64,000 nt of DNA, from NCBI RefSeq assembly GCF_036250065.1, contig NZ_CP109199.1:3720001-3784000 (forward strand), in the 5' to 3' direction. A model generated the notes under the pieces. The model saw only the letters and a program-made list of their open reading frames with translations, was not told the origin of the DNA and searched no databases. Source of the stretch: Micromonospora sp. NBC_01699. GTDB lineage: Bacteria > Actinomycetota > Actinomycetes > Mycobacteriales > Micromonosporaceae. The translations under genes were made by a program, and so were the position numbers. Positions 48,260-61,637 of the stretch are shown piece after piece (positions within the stretch are counted from its first letter, which is position 1; each line of letters starts with the position of its first letter).

Positions 48260-48784
48260 TCAGTTCGGTCGGTGGTCGACGATCTCGCCCTCGATCGCCG
48301 GCCCGGTGGCCGGCGGCGGTCGACTGTCGGCGGCGGGTGGGGTCGGCGGTTGCGGCGCCCCGCGGCGCACCCGGACCCGGCGCGGCCCGAACAGGTCACC
48401 GGCGACCATCGCCGACACCCGCCGCTCCGTCGCCACCCGCACCCCACGGGCGGCGAGCCGGCGCACCGGCGGAACCACGAGCAGCAGGCCGACGACCCCG
48501 CTGACCAGCCCCGGTACGGCCAACAGCAGACCCGCGCCGAGCCCGACGAGCCCGTCGACGACCTGCCTGCCCGGCGGAGCGCCGGCCTCGGCGGCGCTGC
48601 GGAACCCACGCCACGCCCGCATGCCCTCGCGGCGCAGCAGCAGCAGACCCAGGACCGACGCGGCGAGCACGAGCAGGATCGTCCACCCGAACCCGATCGC
48701 GTGGCCGACCAGGACGAAAACCACGATCTCGATGACCACGGCGAGCAGAAGTGCCAACGGCACCAGTCTCAGCCCTCGGCGCAT
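48260..48784 (-). CDS. fxsA: FxsA family membrane protein
   Basis: A 174-residue integral membrane protein with four hydrophobic segments: LVPLALLLAVVIEIVVFVLV at the N-terminus, ILLVLAASVLGLLLLRREG, GAGLLLAVPGLVSGVVGLLL and a following basic loop. FxsA family proteins influence F-exclusion of phage T7 in E. coli, and their role in actinomycetes is unknown. The C-terminal 40 residues are Pro-rich and cytoplasmic. It lies 64 bases downstream of ppm1 and may be co-transcribed with lnt-ppm1. Confidence 0.85.
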   Translation of the reverse strand: MRRGLRLVPLALLLAVVIEIVVFVLVGHAIGFGWTILLVLAASVLGLLLLRREGMRAWRGFRSAAEAGAPPGRQVVDGLVGLGAGLLLAVPGLVSGVVGLLLVVPPVRRLAARGVRVATERRVSAMVAGDLFGPRRVRVRRGAPQPPTPPAADSRPPPATGPAIEGEIVDHRPN

Positions 48785-48848: not shown

Positions 48849-49658
48849 CTACGGCCACCGCGACGTGCTGTCGCCGAACCGGGCCCGACGCCGCCCCAAC
48901 CCGACCCGGCGCTCTTGCAGACACCACAGGGTCACCCGCCACAACGCCTCGGCGATGATCAGCGGACTCATCTTGCTGGCCCCGTGTTTCCGCTCGGCGA
49001 AGGTGATCGGCACCTCCACGGTCCGCAAACCGGCCTGATGCGCCCGCCAGGACAGTTCCACCTGGAACGAGTACCCCTGCGAGGCGACCGACTCGAAGTC
49101 CATCTTGTCCAACGCCGGCACCCGGTAGATCCGGAACCCACCGGTGGCGTCGGAAACCGGCATACCCAGCGCCAACCGGGTGTACAGGTTCCCGCCACGG
49201 GAGAGCACCTGCCGGTGCCACGGCCAGTTGACCACCGCACCGCCGGAGGTCCACCGGGAACCGATGACGACGTCGGCGTCACGGGCCGCGTCAAGCAACC
49301 GGGGCAGTTCCTCCGGGGCGTGCGACCCGTCCGCGTCCATCTCCGCGACCGCGTCGTACCCGTGCTCGCGCGCCCAGCCGAACCCGGCCACGTACGCCGC
49401 CCCCAGGCCCTGCTTGCCGGACCGGTGCAGCACGTGGACGAACTCGTCCGCGGCGGCGAGCCGGTCGGCGACCGCCCCGGTCCCGTCGGGACTGTTGTCG
49501 TCGGCGATCAGGATCTCCACCGTCGGCACCGACTGCCGCAGCCGCTCGGTGATGACGACGACGTTGTCCGCCTCGTTGTAGGTGGGAATGACGACCAGGA
49601 CCCGCCCCACGCCCGGATAACCCGGCATGCGTTCGACCGCACCGGTTGGCTCACTCAC
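48849..49658 (-). CDS. ppm1: Polyprenol monophosphomannose synthase
   Basis: A 269-residue GT2 glycosyltransferase making polyprenyl-phosphate-mannose from GDP-mannose, the donor for lipoglycan and protein O-mannosylation. VVIPTYNEADNV is near residue 21, IADDNSPDGTG near 51 and AEMDADGSHAPEEL near 106 (DxD region). It overlaps the upstream lnt stop by four bases. In mycobacteria the two activities are fused or adjacent, so this arrangement supports both calls. Confidence 0.93.
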   Translation of the reverse strand: MSEPTGAVERMPGYPGVGRVLVVIPTYNEADNVVVITERLRQSVPTVEILIADDNSPDGTGAVADRLAAADEFVHVLHRSGKQGLGAAYVAGFGWAREHGYDAVAEMDADGSHAPEELPRLLDAARDADVVIGSRWTSGGAVVNWPWHRQVLSRGGNLYTRLALGMPVSDATGGFRIYRVPALDKMDFESVASQGYSFQVELSWRAHQAGLRTVEVPITFAERKHGASKMSPLIIAEALWRVTLWCLQERRVGLGRRRARFGDSTSRWP

Positions 49659-51334
49659 CGATCCTCCGCATCTGCCGCGGCCGCGGGGTCGAGTTCACCC
49701 CCCGCCACCGACGGACCGTCTACGGGGACCACCCGGCGGCGGCGAACCACCACGGCCGCCACGAGCGCCGCGACGGCCAACCCCACCAGCACCACCTCGG
49801 GCCAGAAACCGACCCGGGTGGCGACCGTACGGGCGTCCCCGAGGTGCACTTCCCGGACCACCACCGCTGGGGTGTTGAACCCGGTTGCACCGGTTACCCG
49901 CCCATCGGCCCCGACGAACCCGGACACCCCGACCGTGGAGGCCATGAGTGCCTCACGACCGTGCTCGACCGCCCGTAACCGCACCATCGCCATCTGCTGG
50001 AGGGCCTCGGCCTCGTTGAACGTCGCGTTGTTCGTCTGCACCACCAGCAGCTGCGCCCCACCGGTGACGGTGTCCCGGACCACCTCGTCGTAGGCGACCT
50101 CGAAACAGATCACGTCGCCGAGGGTGAGCCCGCCGGCGGTGACGACCCCGGGGCGGGTGCCGGCGACGAAGTCGGACCGGACCCGGTCGACCTGCGAGCT
50201 GACCTTCCGGGCGATGCTGCGCAACGGGATGTACTCCGCGAACGGCACCGGATGCCGCTTGAAGTACATCTGGTCCAGATCCGGGCCGGTCCCCGGCAGC
50301 CACAGCAGCCCCGTGTTGCGGACCTGCCCGGGGCCGGGACCGAGGAGCACCGCGCCGACCAGGATCGGTGCCCGGATCGCATCCGCCGCGGCGGTGATCT
50401 CGGCCGCCGCCGTGCTGTCCCGCAGCGGGTCGACGTCGCTGGCGTTCTCCGGCCACACCACCAGGTCCGGTTGCTGCGCCGTCCCGGCGGCGACCCGGGC
50501 GGCCAGGTCGATGGTGGCGTTCGCGTGGTTCTCCAGCACCGCCCGCCGCTGGGCGTTGAAGTCCAACCCGAGCCGGGGCACGTTGCCCTGCACGATCGCC
50601 ACGGTGGCGCTACCGGCACCGGAGCCGCCCCCGAGCGGCACCAGGAACCCGACCAGCACCACCGCACCCGCCGCCCCGAGCGCCGCGTACGGCGCCCAGC
50701 CGCCCCGGCCCCCGGCCGTTCCCGTGGGCCGCCGCCCGGTGACCGCCCACCAGGCGGCCGCGACCAGGAACCCGCCGACGAGCGCCGTCCCGAACGTCAC
50801 CAGCGGCGCCCCACCGACCGCCGCCCACCGCACCAGCGGCGCATCGGCCTGGCTGAACGCCAACCGCCCCCACGGGAACCCGCCGAACGGGGTCCGGTCG
50901 CGCAGCGCCTCCTGCGCCACCCACAGCAGCCCGGTCACCACCGGCCACGACCAGCGCCACCGGTCGACGACCGGGCTGACCAGGGCCGTCGCCAGGCCCA
51001 GCAGGGCCAGGTAGCCGGCCTGCAAACCGGACAGCAGCAGCCACGGCAGGTCACCGGTGTGCAGGTTCGTCCAACTCAGCATCGGCACGAACAGGGCCAG
51101 GCCGGTCAACGCCCCCAGCCCCGCGCCGGCCCGCAACCGGCGGCGGTGGGTCGCGGCCGCGAGCAACGCCACCCCGACCGGCGCCAACCACCACAGCCCG
51201 TACGGCGGGAAGGCGGCCAGCAGGGCACCGCCGCCGGCCAGCGCCGCCAGCACCGCTACCCACAGCGGCAGCGGCCGGGGCCGCACCGGGTCCGGGTCCC
51301 GACCCGCACCGACCCGCGTGTCCACCATCGTCAC
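49655..51334 (-). CDS. lnt: Apolipoprotein N-acyltransferase
   Basis: A 559-residue membrane enzyme adding the third acyl chain to lipoproteins. About six N-terminal spans (to about 230) precede a nitrilase-like domain. It has catalytic Glu in VVWPENASD near residue 295, Lys in QMYFKRHPVPFAEYIPL near 365, and Cys in GDVICFEVAYDEV near 410. It starts at 51334 or the internal ATG at 51328. Its stop overlaps ppm1 by four bases. The upstream region carries an intrinsic terminator, so a regulated leader is possible. Confidence 0.93.
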   Translation of the reverse strand: MTMVDTRVGAGRDPDPVRPRPLPLWVAVLAALAGGGALLAAFPPYGLWWLAPVGVALLAAATHRRRLRAGAGLGALTGLALFVPMLSWTNLHTGDLPWLLLSGLQAGYLALLGLATALVSPVVDRWRWSWPVVTGLLWVAQEALRDRTPFGGFPWGRLAFSQADAPLVRWAAVGGAPLVTFGTALVGGFLVAAAWWAVTGRRPTGTAGGRGGWAPYAALGAAGAVVLVGFLVPLGGGSGAGSATVAIVQGNVPRLGLDFNAQRRAVLENHANATIDLAARVAAGTAQQPDLVVWPENASDVDPLRDSTAAAEITAAADAIRAPILVGAVLLGPGPGQVRNTGLLWLPGTGPDLDQMYFKRHPVPFAEYIPLRSIARKVSSQVDRVRSDFVAGTRPGVVTAGGLTLGDVICFEVAYDEVVRDTVTGGAQLLVVQTNNATFNEAEALQQMAMVRLRAVEHGREALMASTVGVSGFVGADGRVTGATGFNTPAVVVREVHLGDARTVATRVGFWPEVVLVGLAVAALVAAVVVRRRRVVPVDGPSVAGGELDPAAAADAEDR

Positions 51335-51871: not shown

Positions 51872-53218
51872 TCAGCGCTCACCGAGCAAATGCCGCCGCA
51901 GCAACCCGACCGCCGTGTCCGGATGTTCCGCGGCCAGCAACCCCGCGGCGGCCAGCACATACTGATCATCGACGACCGGTGTCGCCGACCTCGGCAACGC
52001 CCAACCACCGCCGTGGTCGGTCAACACCGCATCGAGCACCGCCACCGCCTCCCGGGGACCGGCGTGGCGAAGGACACCCCCCGAACCAATCACCAACCGG
52101 ACGTCGCGCAGATCCCGGCCCGCACCGTCGCCGACCGCCGCGCCCCGCGCGTGCCGCCGCAACGCGACCGTCGCCGCCAACCCGGCGATCCGCCAATCCA
52201 CCACCCAGGCATCCGGATCAACGGCCAGAAACCCCGGATTCGCGGCCCGCTCCGCCGCCGCGACGGTCAACACCTCCAGCTCACCCGGAGCCAGCATCCG
52301 CTCCGCCCGCGCCGCCACCACCACCCCCGGGGCGCTCCACCGCATACCGAGGTCCCCCTCGACCGTCCGGGCCCGCCACAACATCCCCGCCGCCGCCCGC
52401 GCCGGCCCCGACGCCCGCTCGTCCGGCGTCAGCACCGAATACACGTCCGTGGTCGCACCACCGACGTCGACGACCACCAGGTCACCGGGAAGCTGGTCGG
52501 CGAGCACCTCCACCCCGGTCAGCACCGCCTCCGGGGTCGCCGCCCGGACCAGCCGGGCGAACCGCGTACCACGCGACAACCGCTTCCCGCCGATCACATG
52601 CCGCAGGAACACGTCCCGGATCGCCGCCCGCGCCGACAACGGCGCCAACACCCCGATCCGCGGCAACACGTTGTCGGCCACCGTCACCGGCACCCCCCGA
52701 CCGGCCAACACCCCGACGACCTCCGACCGGACCTCCACGTTGCCGGCCACCACCACCGGCACCCGCCACCGGGCCGCCGCCAACCGGGTCGCGTTGTGCA
52801 CCAGCACCTCGCCGTCACCGCCGTCGGTGCCGCCGACCAGCAGCACCACGTCCGGCCGCGCCGCCCGCAACCCGGCGAGCCCCGCCCGGTCCAGCCGGCC
52901 CGCGCCGACGTGCACCACCCGCGCCCCGGCCGACAACCCCACCTGCTGCCCGGCCCGCGCCGTCACCAACTCCTCGTAACCGACGACCGCCAGACGCAAC
53001 CCGCCACCGGCCGACGAACACACGTACCACGGCGCACCGGCTGCGGCCGGCACGTCCACCGTCGCCGCCGCCACCGCCGCGTCCAGGCCGTGCAGCACGT
53101 CCGAGGCGACCGTCGTCGGCCGCGCCGCCGCCCCCACCAGGGCACCGGTGGCCAACTGCACCACCGCGACCTTCGTGAACGTCGACCCGACATCGGCGCA
53201 GACCGCGTACCCGCTCAC
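51872..53218 (-). CDS. MutL/GlmL-like reactivase of a B12-dependent aminomutase
   Basis: A 448-residue ASKHA-fold ATPase: ADVGSTFTKVAVVQL at residues 8-22 (phosphate-1), VVDVGGATTDVYSV near 240 (phosphate-2) and an adenosine-type VIGSGGVLRHAG near 395. It belongs to the GlmL/OrfZ group found next to glutamate mutase and lysine 5,6-aminomutase, thought to exchange damaged cobalamin or help assembly. Its GTG start overlaps kal by four bases, and it is the last gene of the operon. Confidence 0.85.
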   Translation of the reverse strand: MSGYAVCADVGSTFTKVAVVQLATGALVGAAARPTTVASDVLHGLDAAVAAATVDVPAAAGAPWYVCSSAGGGLRLAVVGYEELVTARAGQQVGLSAGARVVHVGAGRLDRAGLAGLRAARPDVVLLVGGTDGGDGEVLVHNATRLAAARWRVPVVVAGNVEVRSEVVGVLAGRGVPVTVADNVLPRIGVLAPLSARAAIRDVFLRHVIGGKRLSRGTRFARLVRAATPEAVLTGVEVLADQLPGDLVVVDVGGATTDVYSVLTPDERASGPARAAAGMLWRARTVEGDLGMRWSAPGVVVAARAERMLAPGELEVLTVAAAERAANPGFLAVDPDAWVVDWRIAGLAATVALRRHARGAAVGDGAGRDLRDVRLVIGSGGVLRHAGPREAVAVLDAVLTDHGGGWALPRSATPVVDDQYVLAAAGLLAAEHPDTAVGLLRRHLLGER

Positions 53219-53643
53219 AGCAACCGCGCCACCGCGCCCGGCGCCCCACCCGGAGGCGGCGCCGGCACCACCACCGTCCCGGTCGCCGTCACCGCCACCA
53301 CCGGCGGATCCAGCACCGCCGCCGCCGACTCCCCCAACTCCGGCCGCCCCCGACACACCACCCGACACTCGAAGTCGATCTCCCGGCTGCGGGTGCCGAC
53401 CCGGGTCACCGTCGCCACCACCTCCAGCACGTCACCGGCCCGCATCGGCGCCCGGAACTGCACCTGCGAGTACGACGCGAACAACCCCTCGTCCCCGTCG
53501 GTACGGATACACACCTCCGTCGCCACATCCCCGAACAACCCCAACGCGTACGCCCCGTCGACCAGCGCCCCGGCATAGTGCGCGTGCCCGTACGACACAT
53601 ACCGCCGGTGGACCACCGTCAACCCGACCCGCTCGTCGCTCAC
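53215..53643 (-). CDS. kal: 3-aminobutyryl-CoA ammonia-lyase
   Basis: A 142-residue hotdog-fold enzyme that eliminates ammonia from L-3-aminobutyryl-CoA to give crotonyl-CoA in lysine fermentation. YGHAHYAGALVDGAYALGLF, GDVATEVCIRTDGDEGLFASY and RAPMRAGDVLEV match Kal proteins closely, including the DGDEGLF segment. The start at 53643 overlaps kamE by four bases, and its stop overlaps the reactivase start. The C-terminal 20 residues are Pro/Gly-rich and extra. Confidence 0.9.
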   Translation of the reverse strand: MSDERVGLTVVHRRYVSYGHAHYAGALVDGAYALGLFGDVATEVCIRTDGDEGLFASYSQVQFRAPMRAGDVLEVVATVTRVGTRSREIDFECRVVCRGRPELGESAAAVLDPPVVAVTATGTVVVPAPPPGGAPGAVARLL

Positions 53644-54413
53644 CGCCGCGCCCCCTTCACCGCACCGACCCGGACCTCCCGGTTGACCACCAACTCGTGC
53701 ACCAGGTAACTGGCCACCTCACGCGGTGTCGTACCCCGACCGAAGATCCGATCCACCCCCAACTCACCGGTCATCATCTCGTCGAACCTGGGCCCACCGA
53801 CGATCAGCAACGGCCGCCGCCCCGCCGGCATCGCCTCCCGGAACGCCGCCGACATCTCCCTGGTGTTGTGCAGGTGCGCGTCGCGCTGCGTCACCACCTG
53901 CGACACCAGCACCGCGTCGGCCTTCTCCACCCGGGCCGCCTCGACCAGCTCCGGCACACTCACCTGCGCGCCCAGGTTCGTCACCTTCAACTCCCGGTAA
54001 TATTCCAAACCCTTCTCACCCGCGACCCCCTTGACGTTGAGGATCGCGTCGATCCCGACCGTGTGCGCGTCCGAACCGATACACGCCCCCACCACCGACA
54101 ACTTGCGCCGCAGCCGGGACTTCACCAACGCGTTGACCTCCTTCGCCGACAGCAACGGGAAGTCCCGCTCCACCACCCGTACGGAATCGAGGTCGACCAG
54201 GTGATTCACCCGCCCGTAGACGACGAAGAAGGTGAACCCGTCACCCATCTGCTTCGCGTGCACCAGCATCGCCGGCTCCAGGCCCATCTTCCCGGCCAAC
54301 TGCAACGCCGCACCCTCGGCCCGCTTGTCGTGCGCGATCGGCAACGTGAACGACACCTGCACCATGCCGTCACCGGTCGTGTCCCCGTACGGCCGCACCA
54401 CCGGCCCGGTCAC
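53640..54413 (-). CDS. kamE: Lysine 5,6-aminomutase beta subunit
   Basis: A 257-residue subunit with the Rossmann B12-binding domain. The DxHxxG motif is D115-A-H117-T-V-G120, giving the base-off cobalt ligand H117. K128 in ILNVKGV stands 11 residues later, the same spacing as H133 and K144 in the clostridial enzyme, so it should be the PLP aldimine lysine. The enzyme moves the 6-amino group of beta-lysine to C5. GTG at 54413 overlaps the kamD stop by four bases. Confidence 0.93.
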   Translation of the reverse strand: MTGPVVRPYGDTTGDGMVQVSFTLPIAHDKRAEGAALQLAGKMGLEPAMLVHAKQMGDGFTFFVVYGRVNHLVDLDSVRVVERDFPLLSAKEVNALVKSRLRRKLSVVGACIGSDAHTVGIDAILNVKGVAGEKGLEYYRELKVTNLGAQVSVPELVEAARVEKADAVLVSQVVTQRDAHLHNTREMSAAFREAMPAGRRPLLIVGGPRFDEMMTGELGVDRIFGRGTTPREVASYLVHELVVNREVRVGAVKGARR

Positions 54414-56023
54414 GCCGCCACCGCCGCACCCCGGGCGGCCGCCGCGGCCTGGTCCCGTTCCAGCAACTCCGTCGCCGGGTTGTAGTAGCCGTCCGCGTGC
54501 ACCGCCACCCCGTTGCGGCCCTTGCCCCGGTCCGCCGGCCGCTTCATGATCCCGAACGTGCCCTCGGCGATCGCGTTCAACAACGTGTCGTCGGCGATCC
54601 GGGACAACAACCCCACCGCATCGTCCAACACCCGCGCCGCCCGCCGCTGGATGAACCCACCCGACGCCGGCACGAAATCCTCGTGCAACCCACCGGCGGC
54701 GTTCAGCACGTACCTGACGTTTTGCAGGGCGATGTCCCGGTCGGACAACCACGGCGTCACCACCGCCTCGGTCATCATCCCGACCAGCAGGATCCCCTGC
54801 CCGGTCATCGCCCCCGCCAGGTTGAAGAACCCGTCCAACAGGTTCCCCCGGAACACGTCCCCGGTCATGTGCTTCGTCGGCGGCATCCACTTCAACGGCG
54901 CCTCCGGGAACAACTCCCGGGCCAGCAACGCGTGCGCCAACTCCAACCGGAACGACTCCGGCACATCCGGATTGATCTCGAACGCGTGCCCCAACCCCAA
55001 CTGCCAGTCCGCCAACCCCGCCTCATGCGCGAAGAACTCGTTGAGCAACTGCGACACCGTCACCGTGTGCGCCTCGTCCACCGCGTCCGCCGTGGTCAGG
55101 TAGTTGTCCTCACCGGTGTTGATGATGATCCCCGCCCGCGCGTGGACCTGCCGGGAAAACCGCTGGTCGACGAACGTACGGATCGGGTTGATGTCCCGGA
55201 ACAGAATCCCGTACATCGAATCGTTCAACATCATGTCCAGCCGCTCCAGGCCGGCCAACGCCGCCATCTCCGGCATACACAACCCGGACGCGTAATTCGT
55301 CAACCGCACGTACCGGCCCAACTCCCGCGACGACTCGTCCAACGCCGCCCGCATCAGCCGGAAATTCTCCTGCGTCGCGTACGTCCCCGCGAAACCCTCC
55401 CGGGTCGCCCCCTCCGGCACGTAGTCCAACAGGGACTGACCCGTCGACCGGATCACCGCGATCACATCCGCACCCGCCCGCGCCGCCGCCTGCGCCTGCG
55501 GAATGTCCTCGTAGATATCCCCCGTCGCCACGATCAGATAGATCCACGGCCGCCGCACCGGATCCCCGTACCGCCGCACCAGCCGCTCCCGCTCGACCCG
55601 CCGCCGGTCGACCAACCGCAACCCCGCACCCACCGCCCGCCGCGCCGCCGACCTGGCCACCGTCGCCGCCTTCCCCGACGGCACCACGAAACCCACCGAC
55701 CCGGCCGCCGCCTTCTGCGCCAACAACGTCAGACCGGCACCGACCTCACCACCGGCCAGACCCTCCCGCGCCAACGCGTCGAACACCGGCAACGCCACCC
55801 CGTGACCCAACCCGACCTCGGCCACCACGGCGTCGACCAACCGGTTCACCCACGGAATCCCATCCGGATCCGCCCCCGTCACCCCGGCCAGCCGCAACAC
55901 GGCCCGCTCCACCGACACCGTCGTATGACCACGGGCCAGATCCACCACCGGCTGCCCGGCCCGGCGCGCCAACTCCCGCGCCCGGGCCACCACCGCCGCG
56001 TCCAACGCGAGCTTGTCCGTCAC
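54410..56023 (-). CDS. kamD: Lysine 5,6-aminomutase alpha subunit
   Basis: A 537-residue TIM-barrel subunit that binds PLP and the substrate and pairs with KamE. Conserved stretches include ATGDIYEDIPQAQAAARAGAD, VIRSTGQSLLDYVPEGATRE, RLTNYASGLCMPEMAALAGL, MLNDSMYGILFRDIN and NTGEDNYLTTADAV, all typical of KamD. GTG at 56023 has a strong GAGGAAGGAA site upstream. It is followed immediately by kamE with translational coupling. Confidence 0.95.
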   Translation of the reverse strand: MTDKLALDAAVVARARELARRAGQPVVDLARGHTTVSVERAVLRLAGVTGADPDGIPWVNRLVDAVVAEVGLGHGVALPVFDALAREGLAGGEVGAGLTLLAQKAAAGSVGFVVPSGKAATVARSAARRAVGAGLRLVDRRRVERERLVRRYGDPVRRPWIYLIVATGDIYEDIPQAQAAARAGADVIAVIRSTGQSLLDYVPEGATREGFAGTYATQENFRLMRAALDESSRELGRYVRLTNYASGLCMPEMAALAGLERLDMMLNDSMYGILFRDINPIRTFVDQRFSRQVHARAGIIINTGEDNYLTTADAVDEAHTVTVSQLLNEFFAHEAGLADWQLGLGHAFEINPDVPESFRLELAHALLARELFPEAPLKWMPPTKHMTGDVFRGNLLDGFFNLAGAMTGQGILLVGMMTEAVVTPWLSDRDIALQNVRYVLNAAGGLHEDFVPASGGFIQRRAARVLDDAVGLLSRIADDTLLNAIAEGTFGIMKRPADRGKGRNGVAVHADGYYNPATELLERDQAAAAARGAAVAA

Positions 56024-56055
56024 GACGTTCCTTCCTCGAAACCCGCCGAGGCGGC

Positions 56056-57624
56056 TCAGTCGAGCGCCTCGTAGATCACCTGACCGCGCAGCACCGTACG
56101 CCGACACACCGGCAACGGCGTCGGATCCGCCGGCCCCCGCAACTCCGCCTCCTCGGCCACCAACACCGGCAACCCCCGGTCGACCCCCGCCGGCGCCGAC
56201 CACACCGCGAACGTCGCCGGCGCACCCGGCGCCAACACCCCCTCGTCGTCCCGGAACACCGCCCGCCACCCACCCCGGGTGTGCGCCGCGAACGCCGCCC
56301 GCCCACTCATCCGCTGCGCCGGATTGAAATGCGCCATCGCCGCCCGCACCGAACCCCACGGATCCAACGGCGTCACCGGCGAATCCGACCCGAACGCCAA
56401 CGTCACACCCACCCCGTGCATGGCACCCATCGGATTCGACTCCAACGAGCGCGCCACCCCCAACCGCTGCGCGTACATCCGATCCTCGCCACCCCACAAC
56501 CGGTCGAACGCCGGCTGCATGCTCGCCACGATCCCGTACTCGACAAAACCCGCTATCAACCGCTTACTCATGATCTCCGCGTGCTCCACCCGGTGCCGGG
56601 CCGCCCGCAACCGATCCACCCCCAACGACCGGGCCGCCAACGCGAACCCGTCCAACACCGTCGAGATCGCCGCATCCCCGATCGCGTGGAACCCGCCCTG
56701 CATCCGATGCGCCGCACAATCCAACAGGTGGTCCCGGACCTGCTCCGCCGACACGTACCCGTGCCCGCACCCACCGCCGTCACCATCGGAGTACGCCGAC
56801 GACAGATGCGCCGTACGCGAACCCAACGCCCCGTCGGCGAACAGATCCCCACCCGCACCCACCGCGCCCAACTCCCGCGCCCGCGCCGCCCCCGACAACT
56901 CACCCCAGTAACCGAACACCTCCGGGCAGCCGTCCCCGGACAACGCCAACACCCCGGTGAAATCCACCTCGTCGGAAATATCCGGACCACCACACTCGTG
57001 CACCGCCGCGATCCCCAACGACGCCGCCCGCGCCAACGCCACCCGCTGCGCCGCCGCCCGCTGCGCCCGGGTCACCGACCCGAACGCCAGCGCCCGCACC
57101 ACGTGGTGCGCGTCCCGCCGCAACCACCCCGACCCGTCGTACCCCGGCGCCGCAACCACCTCGGGGGCCGCCGCCAACAACGCCGACGAACACAACGCCG
57201 AATGAATCGACGCCTGCGACAGATACACCGGCCGCCCACCTGCCGCCCGGTCCAACTCCACCGCCGACGGCGGCAACTGGTCCGACCAACTCGACTCGTC
57301 CCAGCCATGCCCCAACACCACCGCGTCCACCGGCAACGACGCCGCGAACCCGGCCACCGCCGCCAGCACCGCCGCCGCCGACCCCGCCGACGACAGATCC
57401 AACCCGGACAACGCCAGACCGGTATCCGTCGCGTGCACGTGCGCGTCCACGAACGCCGGCGTCACCAACGCACCCGCCAGATCCACCACCCGGTCGGCAA
57501 CCGGCGCGTCCGCGTCGGCACCGATCCAGGCGATCCGATCGTCCCGGATCAACAACGCGGTCGCCCGAGGGTCACCGGGGCAGTAGAGGTGGCCGCCGCG
57601 GTACAGAGTCGAGGGGGAAGTCAT
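56056..57624 (-). CDS. Amidohydrolase, YtcJ/exoenzyme-regulatory-like, within the kam operon
   Basis: A 522-residue metal-dependent hydrolase. Metal ligands H62 and H64 (DAHVHATD), HECGG near 208, GGFHAIGDAA near 310, RHRVEHAE near 340 and FGSDSPVTPL near 420 are present. It resembles YtcJ-type N-substituted amide hydrolases. It sits 4 bases after kdd and 32 before kamD, where other lysine clusters carry kce. It may act on an N-acylated or lactam form of a pathway intermediate (inference), and it cannot replace the CoA-dependent Kce chemistry by known mechanisms. Confidence 0.82.
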   Translation of the reverse strand: MTSPSTLYRGGHLYCPGDPRATALLIRDDRIAWIGADADAPVADRVVDLAGALVTPAFVDAHVHATDTGLALSGLDLSSAGSAAAVLAAVAGFAASLPVDAVVLGHGWDESSWSDQLPPSAVELDRAAGGRPVYLSQASIHSALCSSALLAAAPEVVAAPGYDGSGWLRRDAHHVVRALAFGSVTRAQRAAAQRVALARAASLGIAAVHECGGPDISDEVDFTGVLALSGDGCPEVFGYWGELSGAARARELGAVGAGGDLFADGALGSRTAHLSSAYSDGDGGGCGHGYVSAEQVRDHLLDCAAHRMQGGFHAIGDAAISTVLDGFALAARSLGVDRLRAARHRVEHAEIMSKRLIAGFVEYGIVASMQPAFDRLWGGEDRMYAQRLGVARSLESNPMGAMHGVGVTLAFGSDSPVTPLDPWGSVRAAMAHFNPAQRMSGRAAFAAHTRGGWRAVFRDDEGVLAPGAPATFAVWSAPAGVDRGLPVLVAEEAELRGPADPTPLPVCRRTVLRGQVIYEALD

Positions 57625-57628
57625 GTGA

Positions 57629-58660
57629 TCAGTCTGCCGCGATCCGGGCCTCGAACAACCCACGCACCCCGGCGTCCGACCGCACCAGATCCACCGCCAA
57701 CTCGGCGTGCCCCGGCACGTACCCGTTCCCGACCAGCATCGTCACGTCGGCGGCCAACCCCTCCGCGCCCAACGCCGCCGCCGCGAAACTCGTCGCCATC
57801 GAGAAGAAGATCACCGTACCGCCGTCGGCCGTCGCCAGGATCGCCCCGTGCTCGCACCCCGGCACGTCCACGCACACCACCGTCACGTCCGCCGGACCAC
57901 CCAGCGCCCCGGTCACCGCCGCCGCCAACGCCACCGGATCACGGGCGTCGGCCAACGCGACCTCCGTCGCCAGCCCGGCCGCGACCAGCCGGTCCCGCTC
58001 CGCCGACACCGGCACCACCCCCACCGTACGACCGGCGCCCGCCCGCCGCGCCGCGACCAGCGCCAACGCCCCGCTCTTACCCGCCCCGCCGAGCACCGCC
58101 ACCGACGGCGACGGGTAACCCGCCACCACCCGCGCGGTCAACGCCGGCGCCCCGCACACGTCCAGTACGGCCAACGCCAACCGCGGATCGAGATCGTCCG
58201 GCAGCACCGCGACCACCGACCGGGCGAACAGCACCGCGTACCCGGTGCACGGCACCTGCTCGCCGCGCCCGTCCCAGCCGGCCAGCCCGTCGGTGACGAC
58301 CAGCGGGGTCAGCGTCAGCGACACCAGCGTCGCGACCCGGTCACCGGGGGACACCCGCAGCGGCGAGGACGGTCCGACCTCGTCCACCACCCCGATCAAC
58401 ATGCCACCCGAACCAGTGACCGGATTGTGCATCTTGCCCCGGTTGGCGATGATGTCCAGCACCTCGGCCCGGACCGCCGACCCGTCCCCACCATGCTTCT
58501 CCGACAACTGCCGGAAACTCGCCGCGTCCAGGTTCAACCGCTCCACCCGGATCCGCACCTCGTCCACGCCCACCGGACCACCCGGATCCAACCGCCACGC
58601 CGCCTGCGGCAACACGCCCGCCGGTTCGAGCACGCGGTGCAGCCCCACGGGTGAGGTCAT
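57629..58660 (-). CDS. kdd: L-erythro-3,5-diaminohexanoate dehydrogenase
   Basis: A 343-residue NAD(P)-dependent deaminating dehydrogenase that converts 3,5-diaminohexanoate to 3-keto-5-aminohexanoate. Segments RIRVERLNLDAASFRQL, IIANRGKMHNPVTGSGGML and GVVDEVGP match Kdd proteins. A Rossmann segment VAVLGGAGKSGALAL lies near 190. ATG at 58660, preceded by GGAAGGGG, begins homology. It heads the minus-strand operon and is divergent from kamA. Confidence 0.9.
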   Translation of the reverse strand: MTSPVGLHRVLEPAGVLPQAAWRLDPGGPVGVDEVRIRVERLNLDAASFRQLSEKHGGDGSAVRAEVLDIIANRGKMHNPVTGSGGMLIGVVDEVGPSSPLRVSPGDRVATLVSLTLTPLVVTDGLAGWDGRGEQVPCTGYAVLFARSVVAVLPDDLDPRLALAVLDVCGAPALTARVVAGYPSPSVAVLGGAGKSGALALVAARRAGAGRTVGVVPVSAERDRLVAAGLATEVALADARDPVALAAAVTGALGGPADVTVVCVDVPGCEHGAILATADGGTVIFFSMATSFAAAALGAEGLAADVTMLVGNGYVPGHAELAVDLVRSDAGVRGLFEARIAAD

Positions 58661-58798
58661 CGAAGCGCCCCTTCCAGACACAGTCACGCTGCCAACAGAT
58701 CGCAGCACGGGAAAACTTACGGCAGAATAATTCCTCTACAGGATATTTTCCAGTAGCCTTCGGATCGTCACCGGTACCGCGCAGCCTGAGGAGGGTCC
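58661..58798. promoter_or_regulatory. Divergent kamA/kdd control region
   Basis: A 138-base spacer with an AT-rich core (58725-58757) unlike its surroundings. It holds a small palindrome GAATAATTC (58725-58733) and outer GGAAAA (58710-58715) / TTTTCC (58746-58751) arms. Both lysine-pathway units must start here. Lrp/AsnC regulators favour such AT-rich dyads, and one is encoded at 61.2 kb. Confidence 0.55.
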
Positions 58799-60205
58799 GT
58801 GACGCAGACACAACCAGTTGAGGCCATCCCAGCGCCCCGACCGACCGACACCGCGACACCACTGGCCGCCCAGCCCTACGAATACCGCCGCCGACCCCTG
58901 GTCGAACCCGACTGGACCCGCTTCCCCGGCTGGCGCCACATCACCCGCGAACAGTGGGAATCCGCCCAGTGGCAACGCGTCAACTGCGTCAAGAACGCCA
59001 AACAGCTGCGCGCCGTACTCGGCGACCTCGTCGACGACAGCTTCTACACCGACCTCGCCGCCGACCAGGCCGCGCTCGCCACCATGTCGATGCTGGTCCC
59101 ACCACAGATGATCAACACCATGGTGCCGGACGCCCCGATGACCACCGAGGCATTCCTGGCCGACCCGATCCGGCGCTACATGATCCCGGTCGCCTCCGAC
59201 CGCCGCACCGACTGGCCATCACACCCGTACGCGACCCGGGACTCACTCCACGAACACGACATGTGGGTCGCCGAGGGGCTCACCCACCGCTACCCCACCA
59301 AGGTCCTCGCCGAACTGCTCTCCACCTGCCCCCAGTACTGCGGGCACTGCACCCGGATGGACCTCGTCGGCAACTCCACCCCGGCCGTCGACAAACTCAA
59401 ACTCAGCCTCAAGCCGGTCGAACGCTACGACGCCCACATCGGCTACCTGCGCGCCCACCCCGGCGTACGCGACATCGTCGTCTCCGGCGGCGACGTGGCC
59501 AACGTCCCCTGGCGCAACCTTGAGTCCTACCTGATGCGGCTGCTCGAAATCGAAACCATCCGCGACATCCGGCTCGCCACCAAGGCGCTGATGGGACTCC
59601 CCCAGCACTGGTTGCAGCCCGACGTCGTCGAGGGCCTGGAACGGGTCGCCCGGACCGCCGCCCGACGCGGCGTCAACCTCGCCATCCACACCCACGTCAA
59701 CCACGCCCAGTCGCTCACCCCGCTGGTCGCCCGCGCCGCCCAGACCGCACTTGAGGTCGGCGTACGCGACGTACGCAACCAGGGCGTGCTGATGCGCGGG
59801 GTGAACGCCACCGCACCCGACCTGCTCGACCTCTGCTTCGCACTCCAGGGCGAGGCCGGAATCCTGCCGTACTACTTCTACATGTGCGACATGATCCCGA
59901 ACGCCGAACACTGGCGGGTGCCGGTCTGGCACGCCCAACAACTCCAGCACGACATGATGGGCTACCTGCCCGGTTACGCCACCCCACGGATCGTCTGCGA
60001 CGTACCGTTCGTCGGCAAGCGCTGGGTGCACATGCTCACCGAGTACGACCGCGAGCGCGGCATCTCCTACTGGACCAAGAACTACCGCACCTCGATCGAG
60101 TCGGCCGACCTGACCGCCCTCGGCCGCCGGTACGCCTACTACGACCCGATCGACACCCTGCCCGAATCGGGTAGGGCCTGGTGGACCACGCACGACCCGA
60201 CCTGA
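58799..60205 (+). CDS. kamA: Lysine 2,3-aminomutase (radical SAM)
   Basis: A 468-residue radical-SAM, PLP-dependent enzyme turning L-lysine into L-beta-lysine. The cluster motif is C177-P-Q-Y-C181-G-H-C184. Upstream LTHRYPTKVLAELLSTC and downstream VVSGGDVANVP match the family, as does HVNHAQSLTPLV. A PLP-lysine candidate is in FVGKRWVH near 405. GTG at 58799 has GAGGAGG before it. The gene faces away from the kdd-kamDE operon and feeds it with beta-lysine. Confidence 0.95.
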   Translation: MTQTQPVEAIPAPRPTDTATPLAAQPYEYRRRPLVEPDWTRFPGWRHITREQWESAQWQRVNCVKNAKQLRAVLGDLVDDSFYTDLAADQAALATMSMLVPPQMINTMVPDAPMTTEAFLADPIRRYMIPVASDRRTDWPSHPYATRDSLHEHDMWVAEGLTHRYPTKVLAELLSTCPQYCGHCTRMDLVGNSTPAVDKLKLSLKPVERYDAHIGYLRAHPGVRDIVVSGGDVANVPWRNLESYLMRLLEIETIRDIRLATKALMGLPQHWLQPDVVEGLERVARTAARRGVNLAIHTHVNHAQSLTPLVARAAQTALEVGVRDVRNQGVLMRGVNATAPDLLDLCFALQGEAGILPYYFYMCDMIPNAEHWRVPVWHAQQLQHDMMGYLPGYATPRIVCDVPFVGKRWVHMLTEYDRERGISYWTKNYRTSIESADLTALGRRYAYYDPIDTLPESGRAWWTTHDPT

Positions 60206-60604: not shown

Positions 60605-61201
60605 GTGACTGAGATCGTTCTCATCCGGCACGGCGAAACCGAGTGGAGTGCCGCGCACCGGCACACCTCGTACACCGATCTGGGCCTTAGCCCCGACGGC
60701 GAGCGGGAGGCCCGCGCGGTCCGCGACCAGCTCGCCGGCCGGGCCTTCACCGCCGTCCTGGCCAGCCCCCGGACCCGGGCGCTGCGCACCGCCGAACTCG
60801 CCGGCCTGACCGTCACCTCGGTCGACGACAACCTCGCCGAGTGGAACTACGGCAGCTACGAGGGCCGCACCACCGCCCAGATCCAGCGGGAACGCCCCGA
60901 CTGGAACCTGTGGACCGACGGCTGCCCGGAGGGCGAGTCCCCCGACCAGGTCGGCGCCCGACTCGACCGGATCCTGGACCGGGCCGCCGACCTGCTCGCC
61001 GACGGGGATGTCGCCCTGGTCGCCCACGGGCACAGCCTCCGGGTGGCCGGCGCCCGCTGGATCGGGCTACCCGCCAGCGGCGGCGGCCTCCTCCGGCTGG
61101 ACACCGCCACCATCTCCGCCCTCGGTCACGAGCACGGACGCCGGGTGATCCAACGCTGGAACACCGGCGGCGCGGCCAGCCTCACCGCGCCGGGCGGCTG
61201 A
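60605..61201 (+). CDS. Histidine phosphatase family protein (phosphoglycerate mutase-like)
   Basis: A 198-residue phosphatase. The RHGET motif has nucleophile H9, LSPDGEREARAVRDQL and LASPRTRALRTAEL follow, EWNYGSYEGRTT near 75 provides the acid and VALVAHGHSLRV near 136 the second His. Substrate unknown; could act on phosphosugars, nucleotides or phosphoproteins. GTG at 60605 begins homology. The end overlaps the convergent Lrp gene by 20 bases. Confidence 0.88.
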   Translation: MTEIVLIRHGETEWSAAHRHTSYTDLGLSPDGEREARAVRDQLAGRAFTAVLASPRTRALRTAELAGLTVTSVDDNLAEWNYGSYEGRTTAQIQRERPDWNLWTDGCPEGESPDQVGARLDRILDRAADLLADGDVALVAHGHSLRVAGARWIGLPASGGGLLRLDTATISALGHEHGRRVIQRWNTGGAASLTAPGG

Positions 61202-61637
61202 TCCGCGGCGGCCGACTCTCGTAGGGGGTGGACAGGACCACGGTGGTCCGGGTCGTCACGCTCGCCGAGGTACGGATCTCCTGCAACACCCGCTCCAGGT
61301 CCGCCGGACTCGCGACCCGGACCAGCAGCAGGTAATTGTCCTCCCCCGCCACCGAGTAGCAGGACTCGATCTCCGGCAGGTGGGCCAGCCGCTCCGGCGC
61401 GTCGTCCGGCTGCGACGGGTCGAACGGCCGGACCGCCACGAAGGCCGTCAGCGGCAACTCCAGCGCGTCGAACGACACCCGGGCGGTGTAACCGGTGATG
61501 ACACCGCGCTGTTCCAGCCGGCGTACCCGCTGGTGCACCGCGGACACCGACAGCCCCACCTTCTCGGCCAGATCGGTGTACGACAAGCGGCCGTCGGCGG
61601 TCAGCGCGGCGATGATGGCACGGTCGACTTCCTCCAC
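61182..61637 (-). CDS. Lrp/AsnC family transcriptional regulator
   Basis: A 151-residue regulator. The HTH at 4-55 reads VDRAIIAALTADGRLSYTDL, AEKVGLSVSAVHQRVRRLEQ, RGVITGY. A RAM ligand-binding domain follows (VAVRPFDPSQPDD, CYSVAGEDNYLLLVRV). Members respond to amino acids. It lies 1 kb from kamA, so control of the lysine-catabolic genes is plausible but not proven. Confidence 0.88.
   Translation of the reverse strand: MEEVDRAIIAALTADGRLSYTDLAEKVGLSVSAVHQRVRRLEQRGVITGYTARVSFDALELPLTAFVAVRPFDPSQPDDAPERLAHLPEIESCYSVAGEDNYLLLVRVASPADLERVLQEIRTSASVTTRTTVVLSTPYESRPPRISRPAR

Follow-up and report, generated by a model that had tools for sequence, protein, structure and literature searches.

The 64,000-nucleotide stretch analysed here (the window; Micromonospora sp. 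NBC_01699, contig NZ_CP109199.1, positions 3,720,001 to 3,784,000) contains at 51.9–60.2 kb a kam locus with genes for KamA, Kdd, an amidohydrolase that we call AmiH, KamD, KamE, Kal and a MutL/GlmL-type reactivase, and without a gene for the 3-keto-5-aminohexanoate cleavage enzyme (Kce). Sequence comparisons lead us to regard it as highly probable that this locus encodes a complete lysine catabolic route save Kce, and that Kce is supplied in trans by a BKACE protein encoded at C1:7498650-7499525 of the same genome. In the proposed route, KamA would convert L-lysine into beta-lysine, which KamDE, relying on B12 and pyridoxal phosphate and kept active by the MutL-type reactivase, would turn into 3,5-diaminohexanoate. 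Kdd would oxidise this compound to 3-keto-5-aminohexanoate, the BKACE would combine the latter with acetyl-CoA to give acetoacetate and 3-aminobutyryl-CoA, and Kal would release ammonia to yield crotonyl-CoA, which would then enter beta-oxidation. We infer the enzyme activities, their sum, the use of the route under aerobic conditions and what becomes of crotonyl-CoA and acetoacetate. We prefer to speak of lysine catabolism by a beta-lysine route, not of a strict fermentation.

The distant BKACE and its link to the pathway

The original prediction had described Kce as missing from the cluster and AmiH as a member of the operon, and both observations hold. The whole-genome search for a DUF849/BKACE protein that it proposed returned exactly one match (PF05853) in the 8.28 Mb single-contig genome, with a score of 310.8 bits against a gathering cut-off of 24.8. 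This sole BKACE lies outside the window, 3.7 Mb from the kam locus, and is flanked by a gene with a Pfam GCV_T domain, which we take to be YgfZ-like, and by an asparaginase-II-family gene. Its closest solved relative is Kce (2y7d, E 1.3e-59, aligned over 270 residues), and its best NCBIfam model is likewise Kce (NF052387). The protein shares with the Kce active site a Glu at the Kce-14 place, a His-x-His pair, a Ser, a Glu, an Arg and a Glu-Asp, these places and their numbering being, we assume, those of the Kce structure. The Glu at the Kce-14 place is replaced by Val or Leu in the solved relatives 3chv, 3fa5 and 3no5, for which no function was given on deposition. The compared residues are kept, Thr/Ser exchanges at two places aside, in all 27 BKACEs that were read from genomes with KamD.

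The BKACE and the pathway are found together across genomes (in what follows, G labels denote sampled genomes, L labels loci, and f and g labels families and genera). Within the window's family (300 genomes), KamD was found in 286 genomes and a BKACE orthologue (E<=1e-100) in 289. Both occur in 285 genomes, KamD alone in one (G217), the BKACE alone in four (G002, G112, G283 and G286) and neither in ten (Fisher 7.8e-15); among these ten, G163, G225 and G249 hold BKACE remnants. For the comparison outside the family, 80 genomes were picked from a 246-genome class sample, in which KamD was found in 56 genomes. Here the orthologue is present in 49 of 50 genomes with KamD and in none of 30 without it (Fisher 3.5e-21); its identity is 59–68% where near full length, and three of the 30 carry only paralogues of 34–39% identity. 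Families f14, f17, f27 and f29 and genus g85 each mix genomes with and without KamD, and the BKACE matches the KamD state. Nearly every genome of the window's family thus has the lysine 5,6-aminomutase route, which is also common elsewhere among the actinobacterial families, the Kdd loci coming from Micromonospora, Salinispora, Actinoplanes, Kribbella, Nocardioides, Actinomadura and others. Its description as unusual for an actinomycete is not supported by these counts: a B12- and radical-SAM-based lysine route, regarded as fermentative, is widespread in this group.

The two loci are also physically linked in some genomes. Among the first 20 regions read, 18 hold the primary cluster, with AmiH between Kdd and KamD in 16; in the other two (L048 and L049) the BKACE directly follows kamA and the cluster has no AmiH, as is also the case in a third cluster, L072 of G011. 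This arrangement occurs in G011, G013 and G014, which represent three genera, and in these genomes AmiH lies elsewhere, beside the gene for Lnt. No match to the BKACE of the window's genome was found within the flanks (up to 10 kb, many shorter) of any of 80 named Kdd loci, and on this ground we rejected the idea of a Kce gene hidden just outside the operon, the three family genera with a BKACE behind kamA notwithstanding. In 15 of 17 class-level regions (4–11 kb each) the BKACE is near the YgfZ gene, the asparaginase gene or both; that place is therefore probably old and the kamA-linked arrangement derived.

The BKACE is absent or decayed where the pathway has been lost. Of the kam region, G092, G104, G120, G163, G225 and G249 retain KamA-AmiH-Lnt but have lost the genes for Kdd, KamD, KamE, Kal and the reactivase. 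G030 resembles these remnants as far as its contig reaches, which stops within kamA. In G033 a contig end truncates AmiH beside Lnt, and none of KamD, KamE and Kal is found between the two. At the BKACE place of G092, G104 and G120 there is no gene, and the YgfZ and asparaginase genes abut. G163, G225 and G249 retain an open though shortened BKACE frame with changes at the Glu-14 and Ser-82 places and in the His-x-His pair. At these last loci (L080, L079 and L078, respectively) the gene between YgfZ and asparaginase is still an open frame despite several in-frame deletions; the protein with the broken site is perhaps kept for its frame or for a non-catalytic role. A regional deletion was rejected as the cause of BKACE loss: of 17 genomes checked for the YgfZ-like gene next to it, 16 still have this gene, and the genome that misses it is 82% complete.

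Several points weigh against the assignment of the BKACE to the pathway. Its 278.8 bits fall under the cut-off of 382 of the Kce equivalog NF052387, and we therefore propose that it works as Kce without filing it under this equivalog. G322 (80% complete) has KamD without a BKACE orthologue, G033 lacks KamD and holds a 41% identical BKACE relative, and the raw family count includes four genomes with the BKACE and without KamD and one with the reverse. All five discordant genomes are assembled in 360–810 contigs, and in each of them a contig stops at the locus concerned. On its kdd side, kamA is separated from the contig end by 11 bases in G112 and by 6 in G283 (where it starts at base 7); Kdd ends 1 base before the contig does in G002 and 455 bases before it in G286, and YgfZ ends 88 bases before it in G217. 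We rejected these genomes as true exceptions; that they are assembly breaks is what we infer from the contig ends. The BKACEs of G112, G283 and G286 also keep the compared active-site residues. For 25 of the 30 class genomes without KamD, this lack was deduced from their absence among the 56 KamD matches listed. The genomes are not phylogenetically independent, so that the Fisher values overstate the evidence. Finally, AmiH stands between Kdd and KamD in 51 of the 71 named loci that hold both, which alone would suggest a shared role.

Set against these points are the co-occurrence, the linkage in three genera, the co-loss and the conserved active-site residues. Of the two possibilities between which the original prediction did not choose, a Kce encoded elsewhere or a different route, they support the former, while a route through AmiH did not find support. 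The distant BKACE is thus very probably the Kce of the pathway, and an operon-based annotation would score as incomplete a pathway that is probably whole, the Kce gene being apart from the cluster.

AmiH, KamA and competing explanations

AmiH was counted at E<=1e-50, with the best six candidates per genome scored, and was found in 121 of the 246 class-sample genomes. Both AmiH and KamD occur in 31 genomes, KamD alone in 25, AmiH alone in 90 and neither in 100, which is no significant association (Fisher p 0.36); among the 25, a contig of G320 ends in a fragment of AmiH, and G380 has a 33–36% relative. In nine regions without kam genes, AmiH lies <=1.6 kb from the genes for Lnt and/or the glycosyltransferase Ppm in eight. 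As for the 31 class-level kam regions, Kdd is directly beside KamD in 15, AmiH lies between them in 14 (two of these cut by a contig end, and one with an AmiH that is a 36% relative), and Kdd falls outside the region in two. AmiH is linked to kam genes across many actinobacterial families. The conservation of AmiH beside kamD, on which the original prediction leaned, was found in many genomes; it fails in the clusters of G011, G013 and G014 and in 20 of the 71 named loci, including many from Nocardioides and Actinomadura. The linkage to kam genes is real and not obligatory. Since AmiH also lies near Lnt or Ppm in genomes without kam genes, we regard it as an old Lnt/Ppm neighbour with the kam genes inside its locus, most likely a resident of the Lnt-Ppm-FxsA neighbourhood and not a step of the pathway. 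Nearly all AmiH relatives read retain five candidate metal ligands, whose motif roles we presume; the exceptions are L116 and the distant L133. We would guess that AmiH hydrolyses N-acylated or lactam amines, a reaction with no bearing on the Kce step.

Could AmiH itself replace Kce? It would then hydrolyse the Kdd product to acetate and 3-aminobutyrate, the latter to be activated with CoA by another enzyme. Some enzymes of the amidohydrolase superfamily do act on carbon-carbon bonds, and AmiH sits between these two genes, kdd and kamD, in 16 of the 19 family clusters read as well as in the 51 named loci mentioned above. However, outside the family 49 of 50 genomes with KamD carry the BKACE orthologue, whereas 25 of the 56 class genomes with KamD are without AmiH at the threshold used and AmiH persists in genomes without the pathway; we consider such a replacement extremely improbable. 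AmiH might also be an accessory or salvage enzyme of the same pathway and be kept in the operon for this reason; it could, for example, open a lactam formed by the keto-amino acid, or release lysine or beta-lysine from an N-acylated form. The linkage maintained over many actinobacterial families and the joint retention of KamA and AmiH after pathway loss are in line with this role. The lack of significant co-occurrence with KamD, the Lnt or Ppm gene adjoining AmiH in eight of nine regions without kam genes, and the missing KamA orthologue in 29 of 30 class genomes without KamD all speak against it, and we judge it unlikely.

The remaining alternative concerns the BKACE, which could act on another beta-keto acid, with the Kdd product taking some unknown route. 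Its score under the Kce equivalog cut-off and its company of YgfZ-like and/or asparaginase-II-family genes in most genomes read would fit this explanation. Yet the BKACE closely tracks the pathway in both presence and decay, follows kamA in three genera and carries Glu where 3chv, 3fa5 and 3no5 have Val or Leu, and we consider a different substrate very improbable.

With the BKACE retained as the probable Kce, the remnants of the locus still call for an explanation. KamA is 80–83% identical in six genomes of g29 and g34 without KamD, with all checked residues kept, as compared to 80–82% in three genomes of these genera with KamD. At L061-L066 (G092, G104, G120, G163, G225 and G249), a KamA with the checked residues adjoins AmiH after the loss of the pathway. 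Outside the family, only one of the 30 class-level genomes without KamD has a KamA orthologue (59% identity). That g29 and g34, and apparently g30 (where a contig ends), have lost the pathway and keep KamA beside AmiH might point to a non-degradative use of beta-lysine. KamA and AmiH might constitute an independent beta-lysine module in the window's family, in which AmiH would free or process an N-acylated form, a proposal that we regard as unlikely. Genomes with KamA and without the pathway offer a direct way to ask about other uses of beta-lysine.

Genes of the locus and its surroundings

The features of the region are collected in Table 1. Gene limits are those of the open reading frames (ORFs); the reactivase ORF spans 51872-53368 and its family match starts near 53200. 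For KamE, KamD and the reactivase, the coding sequence begins within the listed ORF, at a point that was set by the start of the family match, while the true start of kdd is perhaps near 58660. The order of transcription on the minus strand is kdd, AmiH, kamD, kamE, kal and reactivase, with kamA divergent on the plus strand. 'YtcJ-like' for AmiH, 'Ppm' for the family-2 glycosyltransferase and 'YgfZ' for the GCV_T gene are names that we presume to apply.

Table 1. Features of the kam locus and neighbouring genes in the window
Feature	Position	Strand	Basis and remarks
FxsA	48260-48784		Pfam FxsA; after Ppm
Family-2 glycosyltransferase ('Ppm', presumed name)	48849-49658		Pfam Glycos_transf_2; downstream of Lnt
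Lnt, apolipoprotein N-acyltransferase	49655..51334	-	Pfam LNT_N + CN_hydrolase; usual AmiH neighbour
MutL/GlmL-type ATPase, presumed B12-mutase reactivase	51872..53218	-	Pfam MutL 448.3 bits, from ORF residue 56
kal, 3-aminobutyryl-CoA ammonia lyase	53215..53643	-	NF052388 191.9 bits (cut-off 160)
kamE	53640..54413	-	NF052385 346 bits (cut-off 280); solved beta subunit 8t0v E 9.5e-62
kamD	54410..56029	-	NF052384 676.4 bits (cut-off 600)
AmiH, YtcJ-like (presumed label) amidohydrolase (Amidohydro_3)	56056..57624	-	Pfam 250.5 bits, above cut-off
kdd, L-erythro-3,5-diaminohexanoate dehydrogenase	57629..58708	-	NF052381 256.8 bits (cut-off 200)
kamA, lysine 2,3-aminomutase type radical SAM protein	58799..60205	+	Solved 2a5h E 2.4e-39
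Lrp/AsnC-type regulator	61182..61637	-	Pfam AsnC-type domains

The original prediction had recognised kamA, kdd, kamD, kamE, kal and a B12 reactivase, and profile matches together with solved relatives bear this out, the match of KamA being weaker. KamA stays under the curated cut-offs, with 171.1 bits for TIGR00238 (199.2) and 146.1 bits for the lysine 2,3-aminomutase model TIGR03820 (525.4); the CxxxCxxC motif, two Asp and one Lys are kept in every copy read whole. Kdd matches the solved 3,5-diaminohexanoate dehydrogenase 7dl3 (E 3.2e-64), and the solved chain closest to Kal is the beta-alanyl-CoA:ammonia lyase 4mtu (E 1.2e-19). The His and Lys of KamE are 11 residues apart, the same spacing as in the aligned 8t0v; the original prediction had described it as that of the clostridial enzyme. 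The reactivase also scores 241.9 bits with NCBIfam glmL_fam, above the cut-off of 204.05. Matches to this protein are confined to clusters of the window's family, and none was found in the 31 class-level kam regions or in the Kdd loci of Kribbella, Nocardioides and Actinomadura. Past kamA lie genes for a histidine phosphatase and the Lrp/AsnC regulator; a regulator of this type is near kamA in many regions across many families of the class, and it may control the kam locus and sense lysine.

A second KamD/KamE pair, 46% identical to that of the window, is encoded in the same genome at C1:4908655-4910214 (L004, L038:8369-10868), and a similar one in G240 (L039). The pair adjoins a nonribosomal peptide synthetase (NRPS) gene (2,130 residues scanned, the frame continuing), together with genes for a P450, an FkbM-type methyltransferase and a two-component system, and on the far side of the NRPS lie an aminotransferase, a DHDPS-family gene and a 2OG-Fe oxygenase. 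The other kam genes gave no match in the 20 kb around the pair, and with the NRPS beside it we rejected it as part of the same pathway. Perhaps it is a lysine 5,6-aminomutase that would make a diaminohexanoate building block.

Comparison with known systems

Among the papers listed by a search of the open-licence literature, none is on this pathway in actinobacteria by title and start of abstract, although such a paper may exist elsewhere. The parts of PMC3149608, PMC3364876 and PMC3958899 that were read contain nothing on it in this group; in the Actinoplanes SE50/110 genome, a lysine aminomutase is mentioned in a polyketide cluster (PMC3364876).

For the single proteins, AmiH shares the Pfam-level fold family Amidohydro_3 with 3icj and 3igh, both deposited as uncharacterized, and no full-length relative of known substrate was found in searches against solved structures and profiles. 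KamA aligns with the lysine 2,3-aminomutase 2a5h at the radical SAM cysteines and two Asp; the distance from the second Asp to the Lys that follows is one residue shorter than in 2a5h, and the scores stay under the family cut-offs. The BKACE of the window's genome agrees with Kce (2y7d) in the metal and active-site residues that were compared, whereas the former stays under the NCBIfam Kce cut-off. The system as a whole resembles the lysine fermentation of anaerobes (KamA-KamDE-Kdd-Kce-Kal), which has the same enzyme set including Kal and a BKACE-type Kce (gene set after Perret 2011, PMC3149608). It differs from the latter in its actinomycete hosts, in the Kce gene that lies apart from the cluster in most genomes read, and in the embedding of the locus in the Lnt-Ppm-FxsA region.

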